From: an uncultured Massilia sp.
Lineage (GTDB): Bacteria > Pseudomonadota > Gammaproteobacteria > Burkholderiales > Burkholderiaceae_D
Assembly: GCA_913778765.1 (NCBI GenBank)
Contig: CAJYXO010000049.1
Coordinates: forward strand, 1-64,000
DNA length: 64,000 nucleotides
Reading direction: 5' to 3'
Shown here: positions 37,531 to 55,426 of the stretch, one piece after another
How positions within the stretch are numbered: the stretch's first letter is position 1
Layout: the number at the start of each line of letters is the position of its first letter
Translations under genes and position numbers: made by a program
The notes under the pieces: model-generated
Seen by the model: the letters and a program-made list of their open reading frames with translations, nothing else
The model's database searches: none
What the model was told of the DNA's origin: nothing

Positions 37531-40308
37531 ATGCAGCGCCACGCCACCAAGCTCAAACTCATCGCCGCCGTCGTTTCGGGCGCTTTCCTGATCGGCGGCC
37601 TGTCCGCCTGCGGCCGTACGCAGTCGACCGAATCCCTGCTCGCCGACGCCAAGCAATACCAGCAGAAAGGCGACCTGAAAGCGGCCCAGATCCAGCTCAA
37701 GAACGCCGTCGAGAAGAGTCCGGAAAACGCCGATGCGCGCCTGCAACTGGCCACCCTGCAGCTGAAGATGGGCGACAACGCCTCGGCCGAGAAGGAAGCA
37801 CGCAAGGCGCGTTCGCTCGGCGCCGCCGCCGACGTCGCGCTGGTGCTTGAAGGCAAGGCGATGGCGCAGCAGGGCCGCTTCAAGGAGATGCTGGAAACGA
37901 TCACGCCGGAACTGGCGGCCAAGTCGGCGCCCCTGCTGAGCCTGCGCGGTGACGCCCTGCTGGCGACCGGCAAGACTGCCGACGCCAAGGCGCTCTACGA
38001 CCAGGCCCTGGCCCTGAATGCGAATTCCGGCGATGCCCTGCTGGGCCTGGCGCGCCACGCGATGGCCAGCAATGACCGCGAGGCCGCCGAACGTTACGCC
38101 GCCGATGCCGCCGCCAAGGACGCCAACAACCCGGACGTCTGGATGTTCGAGGGCGCCCTGCTGCGCTTCAACGGCAAGCCGGACGAGGCCCTGGCGGCCT
38201 ACGACAAAGTACTCAAGCTCGAACCGCAGCACCGCAGCGCCCACATCGAAAAAGCGTATATCGAGATCAGCCGCGGCAAGTTTGCCGAAGCCAAGACCGA
38301 AATCGACGCCGCCGACAAGGCCGCACCGGGCAGCCTGCTGGTCACCTATACCCGCGCCCTGTACGAATTCTCGCAAGGCAAGTTCGCCGCCGCCCAGGAT
38401 GCGGTCCAGAAAGTCCTCAAGAGTGCCCCGGAACACATGCCCAGCGTGCTGCTGGCCGGCGCCTCCGAGATGAACCTGGGCGCCACCCAGCAGGCCGAAC
38501 AGCATCTGCGCAAATACCTGGAAAGCAATCCGAACGACGTCTACGCGCGCAAGCTGCTGGCCCAGACCCTGCTGAAGAGCGCGCAGCCTGCCGATGCCGC
38601 CGCCGCCCTGGCGCCGGTGCTGAAGGAGTCGAGCCAGGATCCGCAACTGCTGGCCCTGGCCGGCGAGTCCTACATGCAGGTGCGCGACTTCAACAAGGCC
38701 ACCGCTTACCTGGAGAAAGCCGCGGCGCTGGCGCCGAAGGCCGCCGCCGTGCGCACCTCGCTGGGCCTGTCCCGCCTGGGCCAGGGAGACAACGAGAAAG
38801 GTTTGAGCGAGCTGGAGCTGGCGACCACCCTCGATCCGAAGTCGCCCCAGGCCACCATGGCCCTGGTGCAGACCGAGATGAGCCTGAAGCACTATGACAA
38901 GGCCCTGGCGGCCGCGCAATCGCTCGAGAAGCAGCAGCCGGACAATCCCCAGGTCTACAACCTGAAAGGCGCCGTCTACCTGGTGAAAGGCGATGCCGCC
39001 AACGCCCGCGCCGCCTTTGAAAAGGCGCTGGCCGTGCAGCCGACCTTCTTCCCGGCCGTGTCCAACCTGGCGCGTCTGGATATGCAGGAGCACAAGCCGG
39101 AAGCCGCCAAGCAGCGCTTCGAGACGCTGCTGGAAAAGGACAAGAACAACTACGGCGCCATGGCGGCGCTGGGCGAACTGGCCACGCTGCAGAAGAAGAA
39201 CGACGAAGCGACCTCGTGGTTCGAAAAAGCCAGCAATGCCAACCCCGATGCGGTGCCGCCGGCGCTCATGCTGGGTACGCACTATCTGCGCACCAACCAG
39301 GCGCCGAAGGCGCTGGCCCTGGCGCGCAAGCTCCTGGTGGCGAATCCGACCAATGCCGACCTGCTCGAACTGCAGGGCCAGGCCCAGGTCGCGACCAAGG
39401 ATCCGTCGGCCGCGCTGGAAACCTACAGCAAGCTGGTCAACGTGCTGCCGAAGTCGGCCACTGCCCAGCTGCGCCTGGCCGGCGTACACATGATGCTGAA
39501 AAACGATGCAGCCGCCGCAGACGACCTCAAGCGCGCCGTCGAGCTGCAGCCGGAATTCATGCCGGCCCGCCTGGCGCAGATCGAACTGGCGCTGCGCACC
39601 GGCCACCCGGACGACGCGCTGGCCAAGGCCCGCCAGATCCAGAAGCTGAACGACAAGCTGCCGATCGGCTATGCCGTCGAAGGCGACGTCATGCTGGCCC
39701 AGAAAAAGCCGGCCGAAGCGCTGCCGTCCTACGAGAAGGCGCTGTCGCTGTCGAAGTCGCCGGAAATGCTGGTCAAGGTGGCGCAGACCATGATCATGGC
39801 CGGCAAGGCCAAGGAAGGCCAGGCGCGCGCCACCCAGTGGCTGAAGGACCACCCGAACGACACCCTGGTCGCGATGTTCCTGGCCGACCGCAGCCTGGCC
39901 AGCAGGGAAACCAAGCAGGCGATCCCGCTGCTGGAAAGCGTCCTCAAGCAGAATCCGAACAACGCGGTGGCGCTGAACAACCTGGCCTGGGCGTATCAGC
40001 AGGAAAAGGATCCGCGCGCCATCGCGACCGCCGAGCAGGCGTTCAAGGTGGGCGGCGAGAACCCGGGCGTGATGGACACGCTGGGCTGGATGCTGGTCGA
40101 ACAGGGCAATACGGCGCGCGGCCTGCCGCTGCTGCAAAAAGCCATCGTCCTGGCGCCCGATTCGCCGGAAATCCGCTATCACCTGGCAGTCAGCCTGCAT
40201 AAATCGGGCGATCAACAGGGGGCCCGCAAAGAGCTGAACCAGCTGCTGGCGCAGAACAAGCCATTCGCGCAAATGGAGGAAGCGCGCGCGTTGCTAAAGA
40301 CGCTATAA
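37531..40308 (+). CDS. prsT: PEP-CTERM system TPR lipoprotein PrsT
   Basis: 925 residues from ATG 37531, with TGAGGA 6 bases upstream; an earlier in-frame ATG (37414) has no signal peptide. Lipobox LSAC (Cys27) then about 20 TPR repeats over the whole protein (e.g. GDLKAAQIQLKNAVEKSPEN; ARAAFEKALAVQPTFFPAVS). This matches the outer-membrane TPR protein found with XrtA/PEP-CTERM systems, thought to aid export or assembly of the exopolysaccharide or cargo. Strongly repetitive, so a same-strand frame on the minus strand looks open but is a shadow. Confidence 0.85.
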   Translation: MQRHATKLKLIAAVVSGAFLIGGLSACGRTQSTESLLADAKQYQQKGDLKAAQIQLKNAVEKSPENADARLQLATLQLKMGDNASAEKEARKARSLGAAADVALVLEGKAMAQQGRFKEMLETITPELAAKSAPLLSLRGDALLATGKTADAKALYDQALALNANSGDALLGLARHAMASNDREAAERYAADAAAKDANNPDVWMFEGALLRFNGKPDEALAAYDKVLKLEPQHRSAHIEKAYIEISRGKFAEAKTEIDAADKAAPGSLLVTYTRALYEFSQGKFAAAQDAVQKVLKSAPEHMPSVLLAGASEMNLGATQQAEQHLRKYLESNPNDVYARKLLAQTLLKSAQPADAAAALAPVLKESSQDPQLLALAGESYMQVRDFNKATAYLEKAAALAPKAAAVRTSLGLSRLGQGDNEKGLSELELATTLDPKSPQATMALVQTEMSLKHYDKALAAAQSLEKQQPDNPQVYNLKGAVYLVKGDAANARAAFEKALAVQPTFFPAVSNLARLDMQEHKPEAAKQRFETLLEKDKNNYGAMAALGELATLQKKNDEATSWFEKASNANPDAVPPALMLGTHYLRTNQAPKALALARKLLVANPTNADLLELQGQAQVATKDPSAALETYSKLVNVLPKSATAQLRLAGVHMMLKNDAAAADDLKRAVELQPEFMPARLAQIELALRTGHPDDALAKARQIQKLNDKLPIGYAVEGDVMLAQKKPAEALPSYEKALSLSKSPEMLVKVAQTMIMAGKAKEGQARATQWLKDHPNDTLVAMFLADRSLASRETKQAIPLLESVLKQNPNNAVALNNLAWAYQQEKDPRAIATAEQAFKVGGENPGVMDTLGWMLVEQGNTARGLPLLQKAIVLAPDSPEIRYHLAVSLHKSGDQQGARKELNQLLAQNKPFAQMEEARALLKTL

Positions 40309-40412: not shown

Positions 40413-41192
40413 ATGACGACTTTCGAAGATTTCAAGAATCCAGAGGGTGATTCAGACGCATCCCTATCGGACGCTCATGCTTTTAGTGATCGCGATAATA
40501 TGACGCCCTCCCAATTAGAGGATGTTATCGTGAACCACGATTCGTACGGAATCAGGCTTACCGATACTGCGGACGGGCGTAACTCGGCCAGCATGTTGAT
40601 CAATAAGATGTACGCCTGGCGCGGTTATGCGGGAACCCATCAGTTCACCGATGATCCCAACCGCATCACCCTCACCGCCACCGACAAGGGCGACGTGGTG
40701 GGCACGCTCACGATCGGCATCGATTCGCCGATCGGGCTGATGGCCGACCAGATCTTCAAGGAAGAACTCGACGCCCACCGCAACAAGGGTGCGCGCCTGT
40801 GCGAGTTCACCAAGCTCGCTTTCGATCCTTCGGTACGCTCGAAAACCTCGCTCGCCAACCTGTTTCACCTGGCGGTGATCTACGCCCGCGATATCCACCA
40901 GTGCACCGATATCGTGATCGAGGTGAATCCGCGCCATCGCCGCTTCTACGAGCGGATGCTCGGCTTCGAGCAGGAAGGCCAGCTGAAAATCAATCCGCGC
41001 GTCGACGCCCCGGCCTATCTGCTGCGCGTGAATCTCGATTTCGTCACCGAGCAAATCCAGAAATACGGCGGCACCTTCAGCACCGATGGCGTCACGACCG
41101 AACGTTCGTTTTACCCCTATTTCTTCTCGCCGCGTGAAGAACGCGGCATCATCAATCGTCTGTTGCGCATGGACGAGCAGCACGCAGCCTGA
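40413..41192 (+). CDS. FeeM-like N-acyl amino acid synthase (GNAT fold)
   Basis: 259 residues. After a 40-residue acidic lead (PEGDSDASLSDAHAFSDRDN) comes a GNAT-like core: INKMYAWRGYAGTHQF, GTLTIGIDSPIGLMADQIF, GARLCEFTKLAFDP and NPRHRRFYERMLGF. This set resembles FeeM-type acyltransferases, which join acyl chains from acyl carrier protein to amino acids; related acyltransferases are often linked to PEP-CTERM/exosortase loci. First gene of a three-gene run (acyltransferase, ThiF, nitroreductase). Confidence 0.7.
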   Translation: MTTFEDFKNPEGDSDASLSDAHAFSDRDNMTPSQLEDVIVNHDSYGIRLTDTADGRNSASMLINKMYAWRGYAGTHQFTDDPNRITLTATDKGDVVGTLTIGIDSPIGLMADQIFKEELDAHRNKGARLCEFTKLAFDPSVRSKTSLANLFHLAVIYARDIHQCTDIVIEVNPRHRRFYERMLGFEQEGQLKINPRVDAPAYLLRVNLDFVTEQIQKYGGTFSTDGVTTERSFYPYFFSPREERGIINRLLRMDEQHAA

Positions 41193-41215
41193 AAGGCTTG
41201 AATATTTCCTCATCG

Positions 41216-42103
41216 ATGAGTAATCCGTTTCGCTATGAACAGGCGTTTTCCCGCAATATCGGCTGGGTGACGCCTGCAGAACAGCAGGTCCTGCGCGGCA
41301 AACGCGTGGCCATCGCCGGCGGCGGCGGGGTCGGCGGCGTCCACCTGTTGACCCTGGCGCGCCTGGGCGTGTCCAAATTCCATATCGCCGATTTCGACGA
41401 CTTCGACATCGTCAATTTCAACCGCCAGGTCGGCGCCATGATGTCGACCGTGGGCCAGCCGAAAGCCGACGTGCTGGCGCGCATGGCCAAGGACATCAAT
41501 CCCGAAATCGACATCCGGATCTTCCCGGAAGGCGTGAATCAAGGCAATCTGAAGGAATTCCTGGGCGGCGTCGACCTGTACGTCGATGCGCTCGATTTCT
41601 TCGCCTTCGACGCCCGCCAGCAGACCTTCGCCATGTGCGCCCAGCTCGGCATCCCGGCCACCACTGCGGCGCCGCTGGGCATGGGCGCGGCCCTGCTGAA
41701 CTTCCTGCCCGGCCAGATGACCTTCGAAGAGTATTTCCAGTGGGGCGAGCTGCCGGAACTCGACAAGGCGATCCGCTTCGTGGTCGGCCTGGCGCCGGCC
41801 GGCCTGCACCGTCCCTACCTGGTGGTGCCGGAAGCGGTGAATTTTGCCGAACGGCGCGGCCCCTCGACCTTCATGGCCTGCCAGCTGTGCGCCGGCATCG
41901 TCGCCACCGAAGCCCTCAAAATTCTGCTCGGCCGCGGCAAGGTGCTGGCCGCGCCGCACGGCATGCAGTTCGACGCCTTCCGCAACAAGCTGGCCCACAC
42001 CTGGCGCCCGGGCGGCAACGGCAACCTGCTGCATCGCCTGATGATCTCGGTGGCCAAGCGCCAGATGACGCGCCAACTGGCCAGCAAGACCGCCCAGGCA
42101 TGA
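41216..42103 (+). CDS. ThiF/MoeB-family E1-like adenylating enzyme
   Basis: 295 residues from ATG 41216; a TTG at 41198 in frame is an alternative. Nucleotide-binding GGGGVGG at residues 35-41, then DFDDFDIVNFNRQVGA with the Asn-Arg-Gln typical of E1 adenylation domains. There is one CxxC (ACQLCAG) but no clear Zn-binding pair of motifs. Such enzymes adenylate the C-terminal Gly of a ubiquitin-like carrier or a peptide. No carrier protein is encoded beside it. The stop overlaps the next start by four bases. Confidence 0.8.
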   Translation: MSNPFRYEQAFSRNIGWVTPAEQQVLRGKRVAIAGGGGVGGVHLLTLARLGVSKFHIADFDDFDIVNFNRQVGAMMSTVGQPKADVLARMAKDINPEIDIRIFPEGVNQGNLKEFLGGVDLYVDALDFFAFDARQQTFAMCAQLGIPATTAAPLGMGAALLNFLPGQMTFEEYFQWGELPELDKAIRFVVGLAPAGLHRPYLVVPEAVNFAERRGPSTFMACQLCAGIVATEALKILLGRGKVLAAPHGMQFDAFRNKLAHTWRPGGNGNLLHRLMISVAKRQMTRQLASKTAQA

Positions 42104-43179
42104 CCATGAGCACGCCCATCCCGGACAGCATCTACCGCATCCTCGACCTGGCGCGCTGGGCGCCCAGCGGCGACAACACCCAGTGCTGGCGCTTCGAGGC
42201 CCCGGCCGCCGACCACCTGGTCGTGCACGGCTACGACACCCGCGCCGACACCGTCTACGACCTCGACGGCCATCCGAGCCAGATCTCGATGGGTGCGCTG
42301 CTGGAGACCATCGCGATCGCCGCCAGCGCCCAGGGCCTGCGCGCGGAAACGACCCGGCGTGCCGACAGCCCGCTCGAGCGCCCGGTCTTCGACGTGCGCT
42401 TCAGTCCGGATGCCGGCGTCAAGCCGAGCCCGCTGATCGACGCCATCACCAAACGCAGCGTGCAGCGCCGCCCGATGAGCACCCGTCCCCTCAGCGCCGA
42501 GGAAAAGCGCGCGCTGGAAGCGGCCGTCGGCCCCGGCTTCGCGGTCAGCTGGATCGAAGGCTTCGGCCCCAAGTTCCAGGCCGCGCGCCTGATGTTCAAC
42601 AACGCCAAGCTGCGCCTGACGATGCCGGAAGCCTATGAGGTGCACCGCCGCATCATCCACTGGGGCGTGACGCACAGCCCCGACCGGGTGCCGGACCAGG
42701 CACTGGGCGTCGACAACGCGACCCTCAAGTTGATGAAATGGGCCATGGTCAGCTGGAAACGGCTGTCGACCATGAATACGGTGATGGGCACCTGGGCGCC
42801 GCGCCTGCAGATGGACCTGATCCCCGGCCTGGCCTGCGCCGCCCACTTCGTGCTGAAGGCAAAGCAGCAACCGAAGACCATCGACGACTACGTCGAGGCC
42901 GGCCGCGCCGTGCAGCGGTTCTGGCTGACCTTGACGAAGCTGGGCCTGCACATGCAGCCGGAAATGACGCCGCTGATCTTCTCGAAGTATGTGCGCGAAG
43001 GCACGGCTTTTACGCGCGAAGCGAAGCTGCACGGGCCGGCCAAACGCCTGCAGCAGGAAGCCGCCGCCCTGATCTTCACGGATGCGCTGTTCCCGGTCTA
43101 CATGGGCCGCCTGGGCGCCGGCAATGCCCCCGCGGCACGCTCGGAACGCCGCAAGGTCGAAGACCTGATCAAACAATAA
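42100..43179 (+). CDS. Nitroreductase-like FMN protein
   Basis: 359 residues from ATG 42100 (ATGA overlap with the ThiF stop; 42106 also fits). N-terminal ARWAPSGDNTQCWRFEAP is the classic FMN-binding start of nitroreductases, followed by DLDGHPSQISMGALLETI. It is longer than usual and lacks the standard C-terminal dimer motif I would expect. In mycobacterial Rv1355c-type proteins ThiF and nitroreductase domains are fused, which supports a functional pairing here. Confidence 0.75.
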   Translation: MTMSTPIPDSIYRILDLARWAPSGDNTQCWRFEAPAADHLVVHGYDTRADTVYDLDGHPSQISMGALLETIAIAASAQGLRAETTRRADSPLERPVFDVRFSPDAGVKPSPLIDAITKRSVQRRPMSTRPLSAEEKRALEAAVGPGFAVSWIEGFGPKFQAARLMFNNAKLRLTMPEAYEVHRRIIHWGVTHSPDRVPDQALGVDNATLKLMKWAMVSWKRLSTMNTVMGTWAPRLQMDLIPGLACAAHFVLKAKQQPKTIDDYVEAGRAVQRFWLTLTKLGLHMQPEMTPLIFSKYVREGTAFTREAKLHGPAKRLQQEAAALIFTDALFPVYMGRLGAGNAPAARSERRKVEDLIKQ

Positions 43180-43290: not shown

Positions 43291-44148
43291 TTAAGCCTTG
43301 GTGTTGCGCTTGCGCAGGGTCACGCCGGCGCCCAGCATGGCGATGCCGAACAGGGCCAGCGAGCCCGGCTCCGGCACTTCAGCCAGCTTGAACTGACCGT
43401 TGTTGCTGACGAAGAAGTACTGGCCCGGCGCGTTGGCGTAGGTGCCGGTACCGCAGCCCGGACCCGAGAAGCCCGAGAATTGGCAAGCGACTTCCGACAC
43501 CAGGTTTGGGCTGAAGTTGCTCAGGCCGTTGGCATTGGTGAAGGCGAACGACAGGATCGACTCGTTGCTCAGGTCAGCGCCGTTGCCGCGGAAGAAGTAG
43601 CCCGATGCCAGGTCGCCCTTGTCGGCCTTGGCGAACACAGTCACTTGACCGTTGCTGATCGGGTTGCCGCTGGCGTCCACGTTACCGCCGCCGCCCATCA
43701 GGACGTCGAAGGAAGCGATCAGCTTGCCGTCGTTGGCGCCGTAGATGCCGGTGGTGCTGCCGTAGTTGTTGGTGGAATCCTGGTAGATGTTGATGGTGCC
43801 GCCGGTGAACTTGAAGGCGCCGCTGAAGGTGCCGGTACCCATGGCTTCGAAGGTCGCGGTGATGTTGCCGCCCGGGTAGTTGACCGGGAAGAACTGGCCA
43901 TTGCTGTCAGCCTGGCCGATGTTGAACACTGCGTGCTCTTTGAAGCTGAAGGTGTTGGCGCCGGTGCCGGTCAGTTGGATGAAGGCATTGCCGTTGACAT
44001 CCAGGTATTCGTTGACGATTTGGCCGTTGGCAAAGCCGGTGCCAGCCGGGTTGAACACCCAGTTGTTCAGGACGGCGTCTGCATGGGCAGCACCTGCGAA
44101 GGACAGGGCAACAGCGGTAGCGCACGACAGTTTTTTCAGAAAATTCAT
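43291..44148 (-). CDS. pepA: Flocculation-associated PEP-CTERM protein, PepA-like
   Basis: 285 residues from ATG 44148 (earlier in-frame ATG at 44190 lacks a signal peptide; GGAAGA precedes 44148 by 6 bases). Signal peptide MNFLKKLSCATAVALSFAGA, mature start NNWVFNPAGTGFANGQIVNE, a beta-rich Asn/Gly body and the tail VPEPGSLALFGIAMLGAG with basic end RKRNTKA. The N-terminal NWVFNPAGTG with EYLDVNGNAFIQL matches the PepA type needed for floc formation in Zoogloea-like bacteria. Promoter is sigma-54 (44201-44217). Confidence 0.8.
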   Translation of the reverse strand: MNFLKKLSCATAVALSFAGAAHADAVLNNWVFNPAGTGFANGQIVNEYLDVNGNAFIQLTGTGANTFSFKEHAVFNIGQADSNGQFFPVNYPGGNITATFEAMGTGTFSGAFKFTGGTINIYQDSTNNYGSTTGIYGANDGKLIASFDVLMGGGGNVDASGNPISNGQVTVFAKADKGDLASGYFFRGNGADLSNESILSFAFTNANGLSNFSPNLVSEVACQFSGFSGPGCGTGTYANAPGQYFFVSNNGQFKLAEVPEPGSLALFGIAMLGAGVTLRKRNTKA

Positions 44149-44200: not shown

Positions 44201-44217
44201 ATGCAAGGGCCGTGCCA
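44201..44217 (-). promoter_or_regulatory. Sigma-54 promoter of pepA
   Basis: On the minus strand TGGCACGGCCCTTGCAT: perfect TGGCACG-N4-TTGCA with GG and GC 10 bases apart. It lies 53 bases before the pepA start. Confidence 0.88.
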
Positions 44218-44343: not shown

Positions 44344-45060
44344 CTACTTGTCGTGCTTCAACTGATTATTCAGTTGGTCGATGATTTCCGTGGTCGCGCT
44401 GATGATCTGGGCCGGGGCAAAGCCGGCCTTGCTCAGTTCCTTGAAAAACGAGCGCGCCAGCACCCTGGCCACGTCTTCCGGGTTGCGGTAGGCAGTGCGT
44501 ACCTGCCCTTCTTCCTCCCGTTCCAGGGCCAGTTGGGCGAAACGCGAATCGAGCAGGCGCTGGAGCTGCTGGACCTGGATCGATTTGCCGATGAACAAGG
44601 CCGTGACTTCCAGCAGGCGCAAGGCGGTCTCGCCGAAGGCCGGCTGGCCGGAAGCGCCGGCGGCGTTGATCACGCCGACGATCTTGCCGTCGATGCGGAT
44701 CGGCGCGCAGATCAGGCTGGCGCTGGCGCCGGCCCGTCCGCGCGCCAGCAGGGCGAACGGCGACTTGCTGATATCGGGCACCAGCAGCGCCTGGCCGGTC
44801 GCCAGCACGCGTCCGGCAATGCCTTCGCCGCGGCCGACGGTGGCTTGCAAGGCTTCGTCCGGCAAATTGCCGTGGCGCGCATACACGCTCATCCGCATGG
44901 CTTCGCCTTCGCCGCTGTTGAGCAACATGATCGAGCAGCTGACGGCCCCGACCAGGGTGGCCGTCATCGCCGCCTGCTGGTTCAGGTTTTCGTCGAGCGT
45001 GCCGGCCGCCAGGAAGTGCTGCAAGTCCTGCAGGCGCACCAGGGGATTGCGGTCGTCCAT
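44344..45060 (-). CDS. GAF-domain protein
   Basis: 238 residues from ATG 45060, preceded by GAGGAT. Starts MDDRNPLVRLQDLQHFLAAG, then a GAF domain (about 30-175: ATLVGAVSCSIMLLN, GRGEGIAGRVLATGQALLVP, SLICAPIRIDGKIVGVINAA) and a helical C terminus. No output domain is fused, so it may be a ligand-sensing partner. An earlier ATG (45159) is in frame but lacks the ribosome site. Confidence 0.78.
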   Translation of the reverse strand: MDDRNPLVRLQDLQHFLAAGTLDENLNQQAAMTATLVGAVSCSIMLLNSGEGEAMRMSVYARHGNLPDEALQATVGRGEGIAGRVLATGQALLVPDISKSPFALLARGRAGASASLICAPIRIDGKIVGVINAAGASGQPAFGETALRLLEVTALFIGKSIQVQQLQRLLDSRFAQLALEREEEGQVRTAYRNPEDVARVLARSFFKELSKAGFAPAQIISATTEIIDQLNNQLKHDK

Positions 45061-45165: not shown

Positions 45166-46242
45166 TCATTGGGCAGCCGACGTGCGGGGCGAGATGAAGG
45201 CTTTATGGAACAGGTGGCGCGACAGCAACAGCGGCGGCATCCGCAGCCAGTTGCCGCGCAGGTAAAGAGCGAAGCGCGCCAGGCCGCTGAAGCGGTCTTC
45301 GCAGCTGGCGTGGACCGGCAGCAGAGCCCGCGCGAACAGCTGGTCCATCAGCCCCAGCAGCGCGCGGTTCGGCGCCGCCGGCGCCAGCGCATCCAGCACC
45401 GCCTGCGGCACCGGGGTCCCGAGCAGGCGCCGGCAATAGCGCAAGGCATAGAACAGGGGCCGCGCCAGTTCCAGTTCGCGGGCGCGCGCCGGCAGCCCCT
45501 GCCAGAATCCGGGCCGGTTGCCGAACTCGCCCAGCAGGCGGTGGATGTCGTACAGGTCGCGCAGTCCCTTGTCGAACTCGCCGTCGAAGAACAGGTGCAC
45601 CGCACTGTGCAGCACCATGTCGGCCGGCGCCAGCGTCGCCACGCCGGGCAGGCCGGGCACCGGCTGCGCCGCGGCGCGCAGCAGGTCCGGATCGGGACGC
45701 AGGGGAGCCGTTTCCGGCAGGATCGCATGGTGCACATCGATGGCATTGCCGCGCCGGATGTGCACCATCGGCGGCAATTCGTGCATCCATTGCCGGTAAT
45801 AGTGCTGGTCGTAGGCGTCGTGGTGGGTCGTGGCCCAGCCGCCCAGCATCAGCGCCGCCTCGACGTCCGGCAACAGGGCTTTCGGCACCAGCACGTCGAT
45901 GTCCGAGAACAGGCGCCCGCGCCCGGCCGCCAGGCCGGCCGCCATGTAGGCCGCGCCCTTGAGCAGGATCAGCGGCATCCTGAACGCGGCGAGCGCGCGC
46001 TGGATCTCGCGGATTTCGAATTGCACGGCCTGGCGATGCCGCGTTTCGATCGTGCGCGCCCAGTCCAGGTGGCGCCTGGCGGCGGGCGGCACGCGGTCCG
46101 CCAGCCCCTCTTCTTCGCTCAGCCAGCACAGCGTGGCGCTCAGGTTCGCGGCAGTGGCCTGGCGCAGCAGCAGCTCCCAGCCCGCCAGGTCGAGGTCCGC
46201 CATCTTTTGCGGGGCGCGCAGGATCTCGAGCAGCACCGTCAT
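45166..46242 (-). CDS. HPr-rel-A system nucleotidyltransferase-like protein
   Basis: 358 residues from ATG 46242 (4-base overlap with the kinase stop). Nucleotidyltransferase core: LLKGAA near 94-98 and GRLFSDIDVLVPKA with Asp114/Asp116 metal ligands. Later residues are helical with RDLYDIHRLLGEF. It belongs to the aminoglycoside-type (MNT) transferase group known in the HPr-rel-A set; substrate unknown. Confidence 0.77.
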   Translation of the reverse strand: MTVLLEILRAPQKMADLDLAGWELLLRQATAANLSATLCWLSEEEGLADRVPPAARRHLDWARTIETRHRQAVQFEIREIQRALAAFRMPLILLKGAAYMAAGLAAGRGRLFSDIDVLVPKALLPDVEAALMLGGWATTHHDAYDQHYYRQWMHELPPMVHIRRGNAIDVHHAILPETAPLRPDPDLLRAAAQPVPGLPGVATLAPADMVLHSAVHLFFDGEFDKGLRDLYDIHRLLGEFGNRPGFWQGLPARARELELARPLFYALRYCRRLLGTPVPQAVLDALAPAAPNRALLGLMDQLFARALLPVHASCEDRFSGLARFALYLRGNWLRMPPLLLSRHLFHKAFISPRTSAAQ

Positions 46243-47156
46243 GGCGCCTCTCCGGCGAGCCGGTCGAAGACGGCCACTGCATCCTCCAGCCGGCTGTAGC
46301 GGAAATCGTAGGCGGCGCTGCGCGCCATCAGTCCGGCCACCGCATGGAAGCCTTCCACGCCGAGCCGGCTGTAATTGAAGGCGTTTTCGGCCACGCGCAG
46401 GAAGGCGCGCGCCTTCGGAATCGTCTCCAGCTCCGGCGCGGCGCCGGCGGCGTAGCGCGGGAAGACGATCCAGGCCGGCAGCGCGGGCTCGCCGGCCCGG
46501 GCGATGCTGTCGCCGGGCGCCTTCATGTGGGCCACCGTGCCCTTCACGGTATCGTGCACTGGGGCGCTGAACACGGCGTCCGGCGCCCAGTTGCGGATCA
46601 CCTCGATCGAGGCATTCTTCAGGCTGACGGGGCGGGCGGGGCCCGTCACTTCGGCGCCGTCCAGGCGCACCAGGGTCAGCTCGTCCGACAGCAGGCGCCA
46701 GCCGCGATGGACCAGGGCGGCGCACAGCGTGCTCTTGCCCGAGCCCGGCGGTGCCGGCAGGATCGCGGCGCGGCCGTTCTTTTCGATCACGGCGGCGTGG
46801 ATGATCAGGCAGGACTGGACGCGGCTGGTCACGCACCAGTTCATCCCCCATTCCAGCATGGCGAAAGCCTGGTTCAGCGGCAGCGGGGTGAAGGTCCTGG
46901 CGCCGTCATGATCGAGCTGCGCCTGCGGACGCAACCAGCGGCGCACCCCGGCAGCACGGCTGATGCGCAGATGAAAGTCGGCCAGGCTGTCGTCGCCGGC
47001 CAGCGGGTAGTCGCCGTACAGCAAGGCGATGCCGTCGGCGACATGCGGAATCGTGCTGCGCACGCAGGTCACGAACTCGCCGGTCCGCAAGCGCAAACCG
47101 GTCGTCGCCAGGCGCTCACGCAGCTGGTCGGGCGGGACCGAAGCGACGGTCAGCAT
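46239..47156 (-). CDS. HprK-related kinase A
   Basis: 305 residues. P-loop PPGSGKST at 136-143 in AILPAPPGSGKSTLCAALVH, second motif RLLSDELTLVRLDG with metal-binding Asp, and the basic (KGTVAHMKAP) loop. It matches the HprK-like kinases of the HPr-rel-A system (a predicted modification system related to PEP-dependent HPr kinase), but no HPr gene is in this cluster. Overlaps the PqqD-like gene by seven bases. Confidence 0.85.
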   Translation of the reverse strand: MLTVASVPPDQLRERLATTGLRLRTGEFVTCVRSTIPHVADGIALLYGDYPLAGDDSLADFHLRISRAAGVRRWLRPQAQLDHDGARTFTPLPLNQAFAMLEWGMNWCVTSRVQSCLIIHAAVIEKNGRAAILPAPPGSGKSTLCAALVHRGWRLLSDELTLVRLDGAEVTGPARPVSLKNASIEVIRNWAPDAVFSAPVHDTVKGTVAHMKAPGDSIARAGEPALPAWIVFPRYAAGAAPELETIPKARAFLRVAENAFNYSRLGVEGFHAVAGLMARSAAYDFRYSRLEDAVAVFDRLAGEAP

Positions 47157-47413
47157 GTGGCGTCTTCGATCAAGGAAAGGTTGAAGAGCTCGTCGAGCAG
47201 GTCATCCAGGGCGTCCCGCTGTTCGGGATCGGCGGACAGGTCCAGCGCGATGGCCAGCGCGGGCGCGTTGCGCGGGCCGTGCTGGAGCTCAAGCAACAGC
47301 TCGACCGCAAGCTCTCCGAGCAGATGGGTATCACCGGACAGGTCGTTGTATAACAGGTATTCGCCTTCCCAACCGTACCGGGTCAGGGTCTGGCCCGGAC
47401 TCAGTCGCCACAT
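47150..47413 (-). CDS. HPr-rel-A system PqqD-like peptide-chaperone protein
   Basis: 87 residues. PqqD-like fold: WRLSPGQTLTRYGWEGEYLL, NDLSGDTHLLGELAVELLLE and a C-terminal helix (LLDELFNLSLIED). PqqD-type proteins bind a precursor peptide's leader and hand it to a modifying enzyme. Overlap with the kinase gene suggests a complex. Confidence 0.82.
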   Translation of the reverse strand: MWRLSPGQTLTRYGWEGEYLLYNDLSGDTHLLGELAVELLLELQHGPRNAPALAIALDLSADPEQRDALDDLLDELFNLSLIEDATC

Positions 47414-47427
47414 GCGCGGATGTCGCC

Positions 47428-48003
47428 TTAAGCCATTGTGGACTTCAGGTAACGAACGATCTTGGCGCCGTCCCAGGGCGTGGCCCCGGCGGTCGGCACG
47501 AAGCCGCCATTCAGGTAACCATTCCAGATCTCGAAGACCTTGTACTCGTCCATGCAGGTGATCAGGTGGGCGCGCACATTCAACAGGCTGGCGACGATGT
47601 GCATCGCAACGTTCTGGCGATCCGCCGACTTCGACGGTTCCAGGTTGCCCACCACATTCATCAGCGTGCAGTTGAACAGCGCGCTGGACGTCGAGCAGGT
47701 GAAGACCCGGCCGAACTTCAGGTTCGGATCGGTATGGGCGCTCGGCCAGGCCGTCGGGTGGGTCTTCCAGTAGCCCGGCGAGCGGCCCAGCTTCGAGGTT
47801 CCCGGCGAGTGGCTGGCAACGGTCACCGAATCGAATCCGGACGGCGACAAGGCGCCGATCGTGGTGGCCATGCTGTTGCGGCTGGCCATGGTGAGGATGA
47901 CTCCAGAGAGGGCGCCGCCGGACTTGGCAAAGCGGCGCCGGGCTTCGCCCTTGGCGCTCAGGCTGGGAGATGAGTCCGATCCCAAATGTTCTTGGTCATC
48001 CAC
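47428..48003 (-). CDS. GYWKTHPTAWP protein linked to HPr-rel-A (candidate target)
   Basis: 191 residues from GTG 48003, with AAGGA 9 bases upstream. N-terminal charged part, a Tat-like or single-anchor segment (RRRFAKSGGALSGVILTMAS), then RSPGYWKTHPTAWPSA and Cys-containing core (VFTCSTSSALFNCTLMNVVG; MDEYKVFEIWNGYLNGGFVP). SPGYWKNHPTAWP-type motifs recur in proteins from such loci. It lies 14 bases before the PqqD-like gene, same strand, behind a sigma-54-like promoter; it may be the substrate of the cluster. Confidence 0.5.
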   Translation of the reverse strand: MDDQEHLGSDSSPSLSAKGEARRRFAKSGGALSGVILTMASRNSMATTIGALSPSGFDSVTVASHSPGTSKLGRSPGYWKTHPTAWPSAHTDPNLKFGRVFTCSTSSALFNCTLMNVVGNLEPSKSADRQNVAMHIVASLLNVRAHLITCMDEYKVFEIWNGYLNGGFVPTAGATPWDGAKIVRYLKSTMA

Positions 48004-48054: not shown

Positions 48055-48070
48055 AGCAAGATGCGTTCCA
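48055..48070 (-). promoter_or_regulatory. Sigma-54-like promoter of the HPr-rel-A cluster
   Basis: Minus strand TGGAACGCATCTTGCT: GG and GC are 10 bases apart; one mismatch to TGGCACG-N4-TTGCW. It lies 52 bases before the first gene's GTG. Confidence 0.65.
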
Positions 48071-48211: not shown

Positions 48212-48838
48212 TTAGAAGAAGCTTTCGGGGATGACCAGCACGTCGCCCGGGCGCATCGGCGTGTTGGCCGAGATGTCGCCGTTCTTGATCAGGTCGTCCA
48301 GGCGCACATTGAATTTCTCCTGGCGGCCATCGACGGTACGGATCAGGCTCGCGCGGTTACCGGCCGCAAACTCGGTGGTGCCGCCGACGGCGATCATCAC
48401 GTCCATCAGGGTCATGTCGCGGCGATACGGCAGGGCCTGCGGTTTGGCGGCCTGGCCGACCACGCGGACCTGCTCGCTGAAATTGCCGACGAAGTTGGTG
48501 ACGATGACGGTCACCACCGGCTGCTGGATGAATTTGGCCAGCGCCTTTTCGATGTCGCGCGCCAGTTCGGTCGAGCTCTTGCCGGCGGCCTGCAGGTCTT
48601 CGACCAGCGGCGTGGTGATCTTGCCGTCCGGACGTACCGGCACCGCCATCGACACTTCGGGATTACGCCACACCATGATGTTGACGGTGTCGCCCGGGCC
48701 GATCAGGTAATCGGCATTGCTGACCTGGGTCTGCGGCGGCGCTTGGGTGCTGGTGGCGCAGCCGCTCAGTGCCAGCGTGCACGCCACGGCGGCTGCCATC
48801 GCCGCATGTTTGATCAGGTTCGCCTTGTCCTTGCCCAC
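48212..48838 (-). CDS. XrtA-system polysaccharide export lipoprotein (Wza-like)
   Basis: 208 residues from GTG 48838 with GGAAGGGG upstream; longer in-frame starts lack a signal. Lipobox LSGC (Cys27). Export domain DYLIGPGDTVNIMVWRNPEV and SLBB-like QVRVVGQAAKPQALPYRRDM. Forms the outer-membrane channel for the exopolysaccharide. Transcribed away from the rest of the EPS operon at 49424. Confidence 0.87.
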   Translation of the reverse strand: MGKDKANLIKHAAMAAAVACTLALSGCATSTQAPPQTQVSNADYLIGPGDTVNIMVWRNPEVSMAVPVRPDGKITTPLVEDLQAAGKSSTELARDIEKALAKFIQQPVVTVIVTNFVGNFSEQVRVVGQAAKPQALPYRRDMTLMDVMIAVGGTTEFAAGNRASLIRTVDGRQEKFNVRLDDLIKNGDISANTPMRPGDVLVIPESFF

Positions 48839-50981: not shown

Positions 50982-51920
50982 GTGAGCATTATCGAAAAAG
51001 CAGCCAGCCGCATCGACCGCCAGCGCCCTGTCACCCCGGGCGCCGCTGCCGCCACGCCGGCCGCCGCCGCCGCCACCATCGTCGACGACGCCCCGGCCGC
51101 CGTCCTGGAACAGGAAGCGCCGCGCGCGACCGTGCGTCCGGCGCCGCTGCTGTCGGCCGCCGCCGAAGCCGAACCGGTGCAGTCGAAACCCGCCACCCGC
51201 CGCATCGAACTGGACCTGGCGCGCATGCGCGAGCTGGGCATGGTCACCGCCGCCGGCGGCCGCACCCCGCTGCTGGAAGACTTCCGCATCATCAAGCGCC
51301 CGCTGCTGCAGCGCGCCTTCGCCGAACGCGTCCCGGGCGACAAGCCGGGCAACCTGATCATGCTGACCAGCTCCCTGCCGGGCGAAGGCAAGACCTATTG
51401 CGCGATCAACCTGGCAATGAGCATCGCGATGGAACTCGACCACACCGTGCTGCTGGTCGACGCCGACGTCGCCCGTCCCTCGGTGCTGCGCACGCTCGGC
51501 CTGCCGTCCCAGCGCGGCCTGATGGACATCCTGACCGACGACAAGGTCGACATGGCCGATGTCATGCTGCGCACCAACGTCGACACGCTGTCGATCCTGC
51601 CGGCCGGCACCGCCACCGCGCGCGCCACCGAACTGCTGGCCAGCTCCACCATGAGCAACCTGGTCAACGAGATCGCCAACCGCTATCCGGACCGGATCGT
51701 GATCTTCGATTCGCCGCCTCTGCTGCTGACCAGCGAAGCCCGCGAACTCGCCTCGCACATGGGGCAGATCGTGGTGGTGGTCGAGGCCCAGACCACGACC
51801 CAGCATGCGGTCAAGGAAGCGCTGCACCAGCTGGAAGGCTTCAGCAACGTCAATCTCATCTATAACAAGACCAGGGACCTCCCCGGCATCGAAGAGACGT
51901 ATGACTATCACTACGGCTAA
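50982..51920 (+). CDS. XrtA-system tyrosine autokinase
   Basis: 312 residues from GTG 50982 with AAGGAG 8 bases upstream. Ala-rich N terminus, Walker A SLPGEGKT near 131, Walker A' LLVDADVARP and Walker B VIFDSPPLLLT. The short C terminus has only two Tyr (YDYHYG), which are the likely phosphorylation cluster. Pairs with the chain-length protein. Overlaps the next gene by 20 bases. Confidence 0.88.
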   Translation: MSIIEKAASRIDRQRPVTPGAAAATPAAAAATIVDDAPAAVLEQEAPRATVRPAPLLSAAAEAEPVQSKPATRRIELDLARMRELGMVTAAGGRTPLLEDFRIIKRPLLQRAFAERVPGDKPGNLIMLTSSLPGEGKTYCAINLAMSIAMELDHTVLLVDADVARPSVLRTLGLPSQRGLMDILTDDKVDMADVMLRTNVDTLSILPAGTATARATELLASSTMSNLVNEIANRYPDRIVIFDSPPLLLTSEARELASHMGQIVVVVEAQTTTQHAVKEALHQLEGFSNVNLIYNKTRDLPGIEETYDYHYG

Positions 51921-53490
51921 GCTGCCGCGCAAGGCTTTGCGGCTGACGCCGCTTGCCCTGGCGGCGCTGCTGATGTCGGCCGAATGCCACGCCGACTGGA
52001 AATTGACGCCGACCGTCGGCGTTGCCGAGACCTACAGCGACAACCCCGGCCTGCTGACCGACGACGAAGCGCATGGCCAGTGGATCAGCGAAGCGACCCC
52101 CGGGTTCAAGCTGAGCAACCGCTCGCGCCGCCTGCGCCTGGACGCCCTGGGCGAATGGCATTTCTACTCCTACCAGGACAAGAACACGCCGCGCACCCAC
52201 GACCGCGAGCGCCGCTACACCTTCGACGCCGACGCCCTGCTGGTCGAGAACCTGCTGTCGCTGGAAGCGAGCGCGAACGGCTCGCGCCAGGCGACGTCGG
52301 CGTTCGGGCCGCGCTTCACGCAGCCTTATTCGACCTTCAACCGCACCGACGTGCGCACCTGGAGCGTCAGCCCGGTCGTGCGGCACCGCTTCGGCTCCTT
52401 CGCCGACCTGCAGATGCGCGTGACCCGCGATTCGGTGCAGAACGACGGCGACATCGCCGCCAACGCCTTCGCCAACAGCAAGTCGACCACCGGCCAGTTC
52501 ACCCTGGGCAGCCCGGCCAACGCGCTCGGCGCCTTCGGCTGGGGCCTGCAATACCAGCACCAGGACCTGCAGACCGAGCGCTACGGCGATTCGACCTCCG
52601 AAAACGCCTCGCTCAACCTGCGCTACCGCTTGAACAGCACGCTGGACGGCGTCTTCACCATCGGTCACGACAGCTACGAATACACCGGCATGAACAACCG
52701 CAGCGGCGGTCCGAGCTACTTGATGGGCGGCATCTGGACCCCGAGCCCGCGCACCAGCATCGATGCGCGCATCGGCCACAGCTACCTGGGCCGCACCGGT
52801 TCGCTGAACGCGGTGCAGCGCAACCGCCACCTGGTGTCGCGCGTGCTGTACAGCGACCAGGTGACGACCACCCGCGCGCAATTCCTGCTGCCGGCGGCGA
52901 TCGACACCGCGGCCATGCTGGACCGCCTGTTCAGCGCCAGCATCAGCGACCCGATCGCGCGCGCGCTGGCAGTGCAGGCCTACATGGCCTCCGCCGGCCT
53001 GCCGCCCAGCCTGGCCAACAACATCAATTACCTGAGCAACCGCTACATGCGCGAGCGGCGCCTGCAGGCGGCCCTGATCTACAACATGGCGCACAGCACG
53101 ATCACGCTGTCCGCCTACCGCAGCGAGCGCATCGCGCTGTCGGAGCAGCAGACCGACAGCGACCTGCTGGGCAGCCAGCTGAATTCGCTAAACGACAACG
53201 TACGCCAGAAAGGCGTCGACCTCAGCTTCAACTACCGCCTGTCGGCGCGCTCGGCCCTGAACGCCGCCGCCGTGGCCAGCCGCGCGACCTCGCTCACCAC
53301 CGGCATCGTCTCGCCCAGCCACCAGCTGACCCTGGGCCTGACGCGCCAGTTCGGGCGCAAGACCAATGCCATGCTCGAGCTGCGCCACACGGCCGGCAAC
53401 GGCGGCACCCCGAGCCTGAACGGCTTGTTCGCGGGGGCCGGCAGTTATACCGAAAACGCCATCACGGCGACCCTTGCCGTCCAGTTTTAA
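51901..53490 (+). CDS. XrtA-system outer-membrane beta-barrel protein
   Basis: 529 residues from ATG 51901 (overlaps the kinase). Signal peptide (LALAALLMSAECHA) then alternating beta-strand pattern to a C-terminal LAVQF, the aromatic-ending barrel signature. It matches the conserved barrel found with PEP-CTERM/XrtA polysaccharide loci; exact role unknown, likely in export. Confidence 0.8.
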   Translation: MTITTAKLPRKALRLTPLALAALLMSAECHADWKLTPTVGVAETYSDNPGLLTDDEAHGQWISEATPGFKLSNRSRRLRLDALGEWHFYSYQDKNTPRTHDRERRYTFDADALLVENLLSLEASANGSRQATSAFGPRFTQPYSTFNRTDVRTWSVSPVVRHRFGSFADLQMRVTRDSVQNDGDIAANAFANSKSTTGQFTLGSPANALGAFGWGLQYQHQDLQTERYGDSTSENASLNLRYRLNSTLDGVFTIGHDSYEYTGMNNRSGGPSYLMGGIWTPSPRTSIDARIGHSYLGRTGSLNAVQRNRHLVSRVLYSDQVTTTRAQFLLPAAIDTAAMLDRLFSASISDPIARALAVQAYMASAGLPPSLANNINYLSNRYMRERRLQAALIYNMAHSTITLSAYRSERIALSEQQTDSDLLGSQLNSLNDNVRQKGVDLSFNYRLSARSALNAAAVASRATSLTTGIVSPSHQLTLGLTRQFGRKTNAMLELRHTAGNGGTPSLNGLFAGAGSYTENAITATLAVQF

Positions 53491-53501: not shown

Positions 53502-54545
53502 ATGTACGAGACCTATTACGGATTTTCCGCCAAGCCCTTCCAGCTGCGGCCCGACCCGCACTTCTTCTTCGGCAGCAAGGGGCACAAGCGCGCCATGGCC
53601 TACCTCGAGTACGGGCTGTCGCAGGGCGAAGGCTTCATCATCGTCACCGGCGAAGTCGGCGCAGGCAAGACCACGCTGGTACGCAACCTGTTCAACCGCC
53701 TGCCGTCCGACCAGATCGTGGCGGCCCACATCGTCAACACCCACCTCGATCCGGACGACACCCTGCGCATGGTGGTGTCGGCGTTCGGCCTGCCGTACGA
53801 AGGCGCGAGCAAGACCGACCTGCTGACCCGCCTGGAAAAATTCCTGTGCGACGTCGACCACCAGGGCAAGCGCGCCCTGCTCGTCATCGACGAAGCCCAG
53901 AACCTGTCGGCGCGCACGGTGGAAGAGCTGCGCATGCTGTCGAACTTCCAGACCGACGACAAATCGCTGCTGCAGACCTTCCTGCTCGGCCAGCCCGAAT
54001 TCCGCGCCACCCTGCACAGCCCCGGCATGCAGCAGCTGCGCCAGCGCGTGATCGCCAGCTACCACCTGGGCCCGATGGACGCGCAGGAGACCCGCGCCTA
54101 CATCGAGCACCGCCTGCACACCGTCGGCTGGAACGGCGACCCGTCCTTCGACGACGGCGCCCACGCCGCCATCTACGCCTACAGCGGCGGCATCCCGCGC
54201 AAGGTCAACACCCTGATGGACCGCGTGCTGCTGATGGGCTACCTGGAAGAGATGCACGCCTTCACGGAAGCCGACATCAACACCGTCATCAGCGACATCA
54301 GCGAAGAATTCCAGCTGCCGCAATCGCAGGGCGACTCGCTGGCCGTCAACACCCCGGCGGTGCTCGGACAAGAGCTGCGCACCAGCGACACGCGCACCGG
54401 CGACCGCCGCGCCAACAGCGTCGAGGTGCTGGACGAACGCATGATGCGCCTCGAAAAGTCGATCGTTTCCGTACTGTCGATCCTGAAGAAGATCGTCGCC
54501 ACGCCCCAGGGGGCGGTAACCCAGCCGATGGACAACCAAGAATGA
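53502..54545 (+). CDS. XrtA-system-associated ATPase
   Basis: 347 residues. ExeA/GspA-like AAA: MYETYYGFSAKPFQLRPDPH, Walker A GEVGAGKTT at 50-58, Walker B ALLVIDEAQNLS. C-terminal part is low complexity and then a helix. Conserved partner of the XrtA EPS operon; predicted to work at the inner membrane. Confidence 0.9.
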   Translation: MYETYYGFSAKPFQLRPDPHFFFGSKGHKRAMAYLEYGLSQGEGFIIVTGEVGAGKTTLVRNLFNRLPSDQIVAAHIVNTHLDPDDTLRMVVSAFGLPYEGASKTDLLTRLEKFLCDVDHQGKRALLVIDEAQNLSARTVEELRMLSNFQTDDKSLLQTFLLGQPEFRATLHSPGMQQLRQRVIASYHLGPMDAQETRAYIEHRLHTVGWNGDPSFDDGAHAAIYAYSGGIPRKVNTLMDRVLLMGYLEEMHAFTEADINTVISDISEEFQLPQSQGDSLAVNTPAVLGQELRTSDTRTGDRRANSVEVLDERMMRLEKSIVSVLSILKKIVATPQGAVTQPMDNQE

Positions 54546-55426
54546 ACATGTACGAACTCGCCCCGCGCCGCCTGCCGGCGCCGGGAGAACGCATCCGCAA
54601 CGCGATGACCTGCGACGTCGAGGATTACTTCCAGGTGTCCGCATTCGCGCCCTACATCGACCGCGCCAGCTGGCCGAGCCGCGAGTGCCGCGTCGAAGCC
54701 AACATGGACCGCATCCTGGCCCTGTTCGAGCGCAATGACGTCCGCGCCACCTTCTTCACCCTGGGCTGGATCGCCGAGCGCTATCCGCAGGTGGTGCGCC
54801 GCATCGTCGCCGGCGGCCACGAGCTGGCCAGCCACGGCTACGGCCACCTGCGCGCCTCCGACCAGACCCGCGCCGAATTCGCCAACGACATCCGCTCCAG
54901 CAAGGCGCTGCTGGAAGACATCGGCGGACAGGCGGTACTCGGCTACCGCGCGCCCAGCTTCTCGATCGGCCGCGCCAACCTGTGGGCGCTGGACGAACTG
55001 CTGGACGCCGGCTACCGCTACAGCTCCAGCATCTACCCGATCGCCCACGACCACTACGGCATGCCGGAAGCGCCGCGCTTCGCGTTCTACCCGAACGGCC
55101 CGGACGGCCTGCTGGAAGTGCCGATCACCACGGTCCAGATGATGGGCCGTAACCTGCCGGCCGGCGGCGGCGGCTACTTCCGCCTGCTGCCCTACGCCCT
55201 GTCGCGCTGGATGATGGCAAAGGTCAACCGCGACGACCGCCAGCCTTCGCTGTTCTACTTCCACCCGTGGGAGATCGACACCGAACAGCCGCGTCCCGAA
55301 GGCCTGGGCGCGAAGGCGCGCTTCCGCCACTACATCAACATCGACCGGATGGAAGCCCGCATCGAGTCCCTGGCGCGCGATTTCGCCTGGGACCGGATGG
55401 ACCGCATCTTCCTGAACCAGGAATGA
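54542..55426 (+). CDS. XrtA-system polysaccharide deacetylase (DUF3473 type)
   Basis: 294 residues. NodB-like: Asp motif MTCDVEDYFQ, metal His98/His102 in ELASHGYGHL, and a C-terminal DUF3473-like end (FYFHPWEIDTEQPRP). Removes N-acetyl groups from the polysaccharide. ATGA overlap with the ATPase. In many XrtA loci a FemAB gene follows; none is here. Confidence 0.9.
   Translation: MNMYELAPRRLPAPGERIRNAMTCDVEDYFQVSAFAPYIDRASWPSRECRVEANMDRILALFERNDVRATFFTLGWIAERYPQVVRRIVAGGHELASHGYGHLRASDQTRAEFANDIRSSKALLEDIGGQAVLGYRAPSFSIGRANLWALDELLDAGYRYSSSIYPIAHDHYGMPEAPRFAFYPNGPDGLLEVPITTVQMMGRNLPAGGGGYFRLLPYALSRWMMAKVNRDDRQPSLFYFHPWEIDTEQPRPEGLGAKARFRHYINIDRMEARIESLARDFAWDRMDRIFLNQE

Follow-up and report, generated by a model that had tools for sequence, protein, structure and literature searches.

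The window analysed here, a stretch of 64,000 nucleotides from an uncultured Massilia sp., is part of a contig of 104,365 bases (C49) in a genome of 5.53 Mb in 297 contigs. It contains a Massilia locus for exosortase XrtA and the PEP-CTERM surface-protein sorting system, in which three genes run in one direction from 40413 to 43179, flanked by prsT and by a convergent pepA. They encode an N-acyl amino acid synthase (NAS), a ThiF-type adenylating enzyme (ThiF) and a flavin oxidase of the nitroreductase superfamily (FDO):

40413..41192, plus strand: NAS, FeeM-type N-acyl amino acid synthase, 259 amino acids
41216..42103, plus strand: ThiF-type adenylating enzyme, proposed oxazolone cyclase, 295 amino acids counted from the ATG
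42100..43179, plus strand: FDO, nitroreductase-superfamily flavin oxidase, proposed C-alpha/C-beta desaturase, 359 amino acids

The end of prsT lies 104 bp before the start of the NAS gene, and 111 bp separate the end of the FDO gene from the end of pepA. NAS and ThiF are spaced by 23 bp, or by 5 bp if ThiF begins at TTG 41198 rather than at ATG 41216, a choice that its homologues leave ambiguous, some being level with the ATG and others longer. The ThiF stop and the FDO start overlap by four bases, ATGA, and an alternative ATG for FDO is found two codons downstream. Re-derived from the open reading frames (ORFs) of the window, the coordinates, the shared direction and the four-base overlap are just those given in a first-pass annotation of the stretch. 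The closest named ThiF among the matches listed is that of Massilia phosphatilytica (93% identity), and in a tree of 81 ThiF proteins the nearest rows to the window protein are likewise from Massilia.

Two of the three enzymes are readily assigned. The NAS scores 188 bits against the Pfam FeeM model PF21926 (cut-off 27, E 1.2e-55), matches the sequence of the FeeM crystal structure 2g0b (E 4.3e-13), and has several homologues in the genus that align with it from residue 1 at 88-94%. The second protein matches PF00899 (E 3e-41) and NF006077/PRK08223 (450.9 bits, cut-off 266), an NCBIfam model titled only "hypothetical protein". Its ATP site is invariant in 18 sequences (GxGGVG, N73, R76, K89, D130 and D133, numbered from the TTG), and these residues we take to be the active-site positions of E1, MoeB and ThiF. 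A role in thiamine or molybdenum cofactor synthesis was considered and rejected: PRK08223 is the best match, far above the ThiF and MoeB models, and the protein has no conserved counterpart of the pair of CxxC motifs that MoeB/ThiF proteins carry.

The FDO required a structural comparison. It scores 30.6 bits against the Pfam Nitroreductase model (cut-off 23.5), in a match confined to residues 10-32, and it is absent from the output of a genome scan with that model. Its NCBIfam matches to NF047509 (Acg family, 125.5 bits, cut-off 199) and NF005901 (Rv1355c family, 98.4 bits, cut-off 476) fall below threshold, as does a match to NF011424 (81.7 bits). An AlphaFold2 model built from 16 sequences (mean pLDDT 85.2, pTM 0.88) retrieved Acg of M. 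smegmatis (2ymv) with Foldseek at E 1.2e-12, the runner-up being at 6e-5, and with VIA-align at Z 28.2 (root-mean-square deviation 2.9 over 294 aligned residues), the runner-up being at Z 16.0. The FDO is thus predicted from the model to have an Acg-like fold, and we rejected its classification as an ordinary nitroreductase in view of this fold and of its absence from the Pfam-based scan. Lower in the VIA-align list stands 9exv (Z 9.6), titled as a flavin-dependent filament oxidising C-C bonds in cyclodipeptides, a chemistry that sounds like the one we propose for the FDO.

Since these three enzyme types already form characterised pathways, the chemistry to be expected is of a known kind, and the cassette would be a further member. 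TyzA, TyzB and TyzC are described as carrying out tyrosine acylation, ATP-dependent cyclisation and O2-dependent desaturation to give acyl-tyrazolones (PMC10404671). Compared by published description, TyzABC of M. tuberculosis likewise consists of three separate genes (acyltransferase, ThiF cyclase and FDO desaturase), of which the latter two are predicted to lie in one operon, and the Tyz FDO is described as Acg-like (PMC10404671). However, tyzA is opposite in strand to tyzBC, whereas the three genes of the window all run one way, and the tyz genes are flanked by cysK1/cysE and mmpL9 instead of prsT and pepA. The same functions, an NAS-type enzyme, a ThiF and an FDO, are found in OxzAB of Pseudoalteromonas rubra, where OxzB is a fused ThiF and FDO (PMC10404671), and in mycobacterial TrzAS, a pathway of the same kind whose product is opened at the ring by acid or alcohol in work-up (PMC12856293). 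In both of these ThiF and FDO are one protein, whereas the window has two genes with a four-base overlap, fused in some relatives. Within what is by nearest relatives the same genus, the kyonggic acid producer Massilia kyonggiensis has an NAS-ThiF-nitroreductase gene cluster that has been proposed to make kyonggic acids (dehydrotyrosine lipids), and M. umbonata, described as having neither the ThiF nor the nitroreductase gene, makes saturated forms only (PMC12479983). Matched by gene type, the M. kyonggiensis cluster holds the same three kinds of gene and is also tightly packed, with gaps below 10 bp or overlaps; the NAS-ThiF spacing of the window, at 23 bp, exceeds this except with the TTG start. 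A term search of the main text of that paper returned neither PEP-CTERM nor exosortase. The neighbourhood itself has a precedent, as long-chain NAS genes were linked to PEP-CTERM and exosortase in 2011 (Craig, Cherry and Brady, as cited in PMC4897644), likewise with the NAS inside an exosortase locus.

By analogy with these systems, we propose as the product of the cassette an acyl-oxazolone derived from an aromatic amino acid, which would show up in worked-up extracts in the form of an N-acyl-dehydro amino acid, a reading to which we assign a probability of roughly 0.7. The NAS would acylate an aromatic L-amino acid, tyrosine or phenylalanine being the likeliest, at its amino group, taking a long-chain acyl group from acyl-ACP (acyl carrier protein) or acyl-CoA. 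ThiF would then use ATP to adenylate the free carboxylate, upon which the adjacent amide oxygen would close the ring to a 2-alkyl-oxazolone, and the FDO, with flavin mononucleotide, would take two hydrogens across C-alpha/C-beta to give a conjugated acyl-tyrazolone or acyl-phenazolone. Water would finally open the ring to N-acyl-2,3-dehydro amino acids of the kyonggic acid type. The protein families, the gene order, the fusions, the co-occurrence and the conserved ATP-site residues can be read directly from the genomes; each chemical step, and its substrate, is modelled on the characterised relatives. The gene context leads us to infer a role for the product in the PEP-CTERM/XrtA surface system, with PepA-type proteins as its probable partners. 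An acylated amino acid, made and modified by the three enzymes and tied to this system, had been suggested in the first-pass annotation and fits the acyl-oxazolones that these enzyme types make elsewhere, the tie being drawn from gene context and not from a phenotype. The small lipopeptide named there as another possible product found no support: a nonribosomal lipopeptide pathway was considered and rejected, as condensation and carrier modules were lacking among the window ORFs scanned, which were part of the total.

The final step of the proposed pathway can also be turned around, such that the open-chain N-acyl-2,3-dehydro amino acid is the true end product, ThiF merely activates the acid for the FDO, and the ring exists only as an intermediate, opened deliberately. 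Massilia is reported to yield kyonggic acids with a 2,3-double bond, with no oxazolone seen there (PMC12479983), and the same XrtA region contains, beyond the window end, a protein with both the TIGR03101 and TIGR03100 exosortase-associated hydrolase domains. TrzS is described as oxidising only once cyclisation has taken place (PMC12856293), which would likewise suit a transient ring. The three-gene unit itself is without a hydrolase, however, and acid and methanol are described as opening the ring in work-up (PMC12856293), so that the open forms are possibly artefacts. We regard the open-chain product as possible but somewhat doubtful.

Support for the acyl-oxazolone proposal comes from proteins in which the activities are joined. 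We assembled a set of named loci, the best 80 of 572 confirmed candidates, all centred on ThiF; because some of these loci end at contig ends, counts of missing neighbours in them are lower bounds. The fused ThiF-nitroreductase proteins invoked in the first-pass annotation do exist: in-frame ThiF-FDO fusions occur in seven of the 80 loci (two in Herbaspirillum, two in Nitrosospira and three in metagenome-derived lineages), and a further fusion of 669 amino acids with both Pfam domains is found at L078. The joining goes a step further on a plasmid of Nitratidesulfovibrio vulgaris DP4 (L180), from another phylum, where a single chain of 989 amino acids carries FeeM, ThiF and Nitroreductase domains in the gene order of the window. 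It matches NF011425 (PRK14852, NCBIfam title "hypothetical protein") across its full length and is 30%, 46% and 24% identical to the window NAS, ThiF and FDO, respectively. Its neighbours are a prsT homologue, namely a tetratricopeptide repeat (TPR) protein above the prsT cut-off (443 bits vs 312), an XrtA/PEP-CTERM glycosyltransferase and PEP-CTERM proteins. A three-domain protein in such company is in our view the strongest single sign, taken from sequence, that the three activities would belong together and to the PEP-CTERM system. Among plasmids, ThiF was found on four of 72,556 records, and the FDO gave no match at E 1e-8; on the Bdellovibrio plasmid, the gene preceding ThiF gave no Pfam match.

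Within the genus, we surveyed 62 genomes with thresholds of E 1e-10 for NAS, E 1e-60 for ThiF and E 1e-20 for FDO, and recovered NAS in 54, ThiF in 47 and FDO in 33. NAS stands directly upstream of ThiF, within 1 kb, in all 47 genomes with ThiF, and in each of the 33 genomes with FDO the latter is found beside ThiF, 32 times in tandem after it and once convergently. Joint conservation, on which the first-pass annotation had let its proposal depend, therefore holds in the genus but is not universal, since 29 of the 62 genomes lack an FDO at this threshold and pairs of ThiF and FDO with no NAS in the stretch covered are found in Janthinobacterium and Duganella relatives. Where the FDO is missing, 12 genomes have a second NAS on the other strand in its place, and two (G126 and G162) have a divergent FDO on the opposite strand, so that every one of the 47 ThiF genes adjoins one of three arrangements. 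The second NAS is accompanied by a methyltransferase where the neighbourhood was read (G018 and G056 of the 12, and six of the 80 named loci). In the tree of ThiF proteins, the label for convergent FDO changes three times and that for methyltransferase twice, of which well-supported branches force only two and one; the tree is of a quick kind, with 18 of 77 inner branches firm and a midpoint root. Modules thus seem to have been exchanged at this site, in a pattern that the tree resolves weakly.

Other modules occur at the same place. Among the three NAS-only genomes read, G131 and G143 have a relative of FAD-binding oxidases (26-30% identical) there, and in G132 the contig ends. An FAD-binding-4 oxidase or a relative of it is also found near a prsT-linked NAS, at the position of ThiF-FDO, in L065 (9722-11281), L069 (8214-9791), L186 and L187, and is apparently another tailoring module. 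At L070 (11473-14313), a prsT-linked NAS, a PEP-CTERM protein and a divergent FDO stand in a row with no ThiF recognised, so that desaturation without cyclisation would be expected there. In seven genomes of the genus that also have a second NAS (G120, G122, G123, G133, G150, G151 and G169), the first NAS has an in-frame TAA inside the stretch matching the window NAS, which points to a later start or to damage.

Beyond the genus, we surveyed 116 genomes of the family and 300 of the order. In the family, FDO was found in 17 genomes, NAS in 31, prsT in 44 and XrtA above cut-off in 40; 16 of the 17 genomes with FDO have NAS and 16 have prsT, G047 being the exception to both, and prsT is present in all 31 genomes with NAS. 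NAS, ThiF-FDO and prsT stand together in eight of the 17 (G000, G070, G045, G091, G067, G075, G011 and G052), with XrtA on the same contig in seven of these eight and none listed for G091. At the level of the order the corresponding counts are 35 for FDO (omitting a second, partial FDO row of G454), 59 for NAS and 77 for prsT. NAS is present in 34 and prsT in 33 of the 35 genomes with FDO, and prsT in 54 of the 59 with NAS; Fisher p-values overstate such co-occurrence, as the surveyed genomes are related and not phylogenetically independent. A same-strand NAS is found within 3 kb of FDO in 27 of the 35. The distance to prsT is at most 40 kb for FDO, on a shared contig, in 18 of the 35 (many contigs are broken), and for NAS in 30 of the 59.

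A variable site of this kind also invites the view that the cassette codes for a secondary metabolite or a signal and just happens to be lodged at the XrtA locus, with the PEP-CTERM link a matter of hitchhiking. The range of occupants, from FDO to methyltransferase plus second NAS to divergent FDO or FAD-type oxidase, is what such a view would lead one to expect, and in G008 the set NAS-ThiF-FDO occurs with no prsT in the preceding 8.6 kb; the set in G050 also stands without prsT, on an 11-kb contig that is too short to decide. Yet hitchhiking accounts poorly for the order-level co-occurrence with prsT, for a three-domain protein that adjoins a prsT homologue in another phylum, and for the PEP-CTERM-like ORFs that adjoin even NAS-less pairs (see below), and we therefore consider it unlikely.

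These NAS-less pairs form a sizeable group. Of the 80 named loci, 32 have a tandem FDO while their stretch contains no NAS and no XrtA-type genes; these are mainly from Janthinobacterium, Duganella and Rugamonas, and 30 of the 32 make up one side of a branch of the ThiF tree (SH-aLRT 97). In family group g6, all five genomes with a NAS-less ThiF-FDO pair carry an NAS elsewhere. Using a purpose-made tail pattern, and a purpose-made codon-score caller for genes outside the window, we counted PEP-CTERM-like ORFs within 6 kb of 67 of the 80 loci, compared to 7 of 80 with the proteins read backwards, and of 25 of the 33 loci in which NAS and XrtA-type genes are both missing. Restricted to NAS-less loci with full flanks, the count is 23 of 28, compared to 0 of 20 and 1 of 20 for 12-kb windows placed at even intervals in two family genomes. 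As few lineages are represented in these loci, this proximity is an association and not a test of function. The eight Massilia loci scanned have PepA above cut-off (the window, L058, L107, L111 and L123) or a PepA-like protein below it (L100, L104 and L121), and among the NAS-less loci scanned L141 has PepA above cut-off, L127 and L138 have the EDSAP-1 type, and L152 and L161 have sub-cut-off PepA matches only. Single-linkage clustering grouped the PEP-CTERM neighbours of Massilia and Janthinobacterium into one family, which we rejected because direct BLAST of the members examined did not join them and NCBIfam splits them into PepA-like and EDSAP-1.

The same pairs bear on the question of the substrate. 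One could imagine that ThiF is an E1-type enzyme acting on a protein or peptide, such as a PEP-CTERM protein, that the FDO oxidises this protein, and that the NAS product is a separate lipid. NAS-less pairs that still adjoin PEP-CTERM-like ORFs would be in line with this, as would the report that PepA is processed and modified (PMC9850573). It is at odds with the three-domain protein, which couples NAS to ThiF-FDO. Moreover, PEP-CTERM proteins are exported, whereas ThiF requires the ATP of the cytoplasm. With the characterised relatives described as using N-acyl amino acids (PMC10404671), a protein substrate appears highly improbable.

Several observations nevertheless weigh against an acyl-oxazolone as the product. 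The NAS-less ThiF-FDO pairs just described are common, and the 12 genomes of the genus with a second NAS keep NAS-ThiF without any FDO. The FDO of the window is a remote relative, with its short Pfam match and its scores below the NCBIfam cut-offs. Nitratidesulfovibrio, which bears the FDO domain in the three-domain protein, is a sulphate reducer, making O2 doubtful as the sole electron acceptor there. Finally, it is stated in PMC12479983 that acyl-oxazolones have not been observed in the kyonggic, thalassotalic or stieleriacine families.

If an acyl-oxazolone is indeed formed, one could also speculate about its use. On a reading that strikes us as rather improbable, the exosortase system would have it as a reactive lipid of its own: as an azlactone it would acylate amines and could thus lipidate PepA-type PEP-CTERM proteins, or amino sugars freed by the polysaccharide deacetylase of the XrtA system, binding exopolysaccharide to the cell in flocculation, with NAS-less pairs drawing on an NAS elsewhere in the genome. 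What stands out is how often an acyl-oxazolone gene set accompanies a surface-protein sorting system. Two questions meet here: what lipid-making NAS genes do at exosortase loci, and what oxazolones do for the cell, the latter having been called a major unresolved question (PMC12856293). The association of a complete set of oxazolone genes with prsT, PEP-CTERM proteins and XrtA, in one instance as a single protein adjoining a prsT homologue, offers both a common testable setting, in culturable environmental Massilia. It also suggests that kyonggic acids may be opened oxazolones. In the literature searched, which left subscription journals mostly outside, we found no paper joining oxazolone chemistry to PEP-CTERM (both words, "oxazolone" and "PEP-CTERM", do occur in the text of PMC8776678), and no prior report in print of the genus and order co-occurrence counts, of the PEP-CTERM context of the 989-residue protein, or of NAS-less pairs beside PEP-CTERM-like ORFs.

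The genes surrounding the cassette, which also include the glycosyltransferases stp1-3 of the XrtA locus, are as follows:

37531..40308, plus strand: prsT, XrtA/PEP-CTERM TPR protein (TIGR02917, 857.2 bits, cut-off 312.2; start by coding score, longest ORF from 37414)
43291..44148, minus strand: pepA, flocculation-associated PEP-CTERM protein with a PEP_CTERM domain (NF033554, 145.8 bits, cut-off 80)
44202..44217, minus strand: sigma-54 type -24/-12 promoter match upstream of pepA, TGGCACGGCCCTTGCA, an exact match to the consensus
44344..45060, minus strand: GAF-domain protein (PF13185/PF01590)
45166..46242, minus strand: nucleotidyltransferase adjoining the HPr-rel-A kinase (PF14907, 180.1 bits)
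46239..47156, minus strand: HprK-related kinase A (TIGR04352, 391.8 bits)
47150..47413, minus strand: HPr-rel-A system PqqD-family protein (TIGR04353, 47.3 bits, cut-off 35)
48212..48838, minus strand: polysaccharide export protein (PF02563, 87.8 bits)
51901..53490, plus strand: PEP-CTERM system outer membrane protein (TIGR03016, 252.1 bits)
54542..55426, plus strand: XrtA-system polysaccharide deacetylase (TIGR03006, 441.5 bits on the ORF from 53474; start by coding score)
56630..58201, plus strand: exosortase XrtA (TIGR03109, 340.6 bits at 56711-57487; PF09721, 243.4 bits)
59387..61279, plus strand: XrtA/PEP-CTERM system amidotransferase (TIGR03108, 1043.6 bits)

The region continues beyond the window end. 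Positions 68923-76143 of the contig (L098, 8923-16143) encode an XrtA-associated decarboxylase (TIGR03099) and acyl-CoA ligase (TIGR03098), an acyl carrier protein and the fused hydrolases TIGR03100/03101. The carrier protein, of 82 amino acids, matches PF00550 and lies at contig positions 74145-74393, about 31 kb from the cassette. The first-pass annotation had seen no carrier protein, which is correct for the window ORFs scanned, but the contig as a whole does contain one.

With respect to regulation, the sigma-54 match at pepA is the sole exact consensus in the window, with 0.10 expected and at least one found in seven of 100 shuffles, and pepA is reported to be RpoN-dependent (PMC9850573). 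The same study describes prsT as required in flocculation, and its floc screen is described as having yielded no pepA mutant. Across the 80 loci, a sigma-54 site with at most one mismatch lies upstream of 55 of 88 PEP-CTERM-like ORFs, compared to one of 88 shuffled stretches, and upstream of only three of the 80 cassette starts. A search for sigma-70 promoters between 40200 and 44400 returned none, where 0.9 were expected.

A few further observations concern the surroundings. A second, partial prsT-like match, below the family cut-off, is present elsewhere in the genome of the window (G000, C4, 8387-9388). A one-mismatch sigma-54 match is found at 48055-48070 on the minus strand, upstream of an ORF at 47428-48003; such matches are common by chance at two mismatches. 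This ORF belongs to no assigned family, lies next to the HPr-rel-A genes (45166-47413) that adjoin pepA, and has relatives that recur beside HPr-rel-A genes elsewhere.

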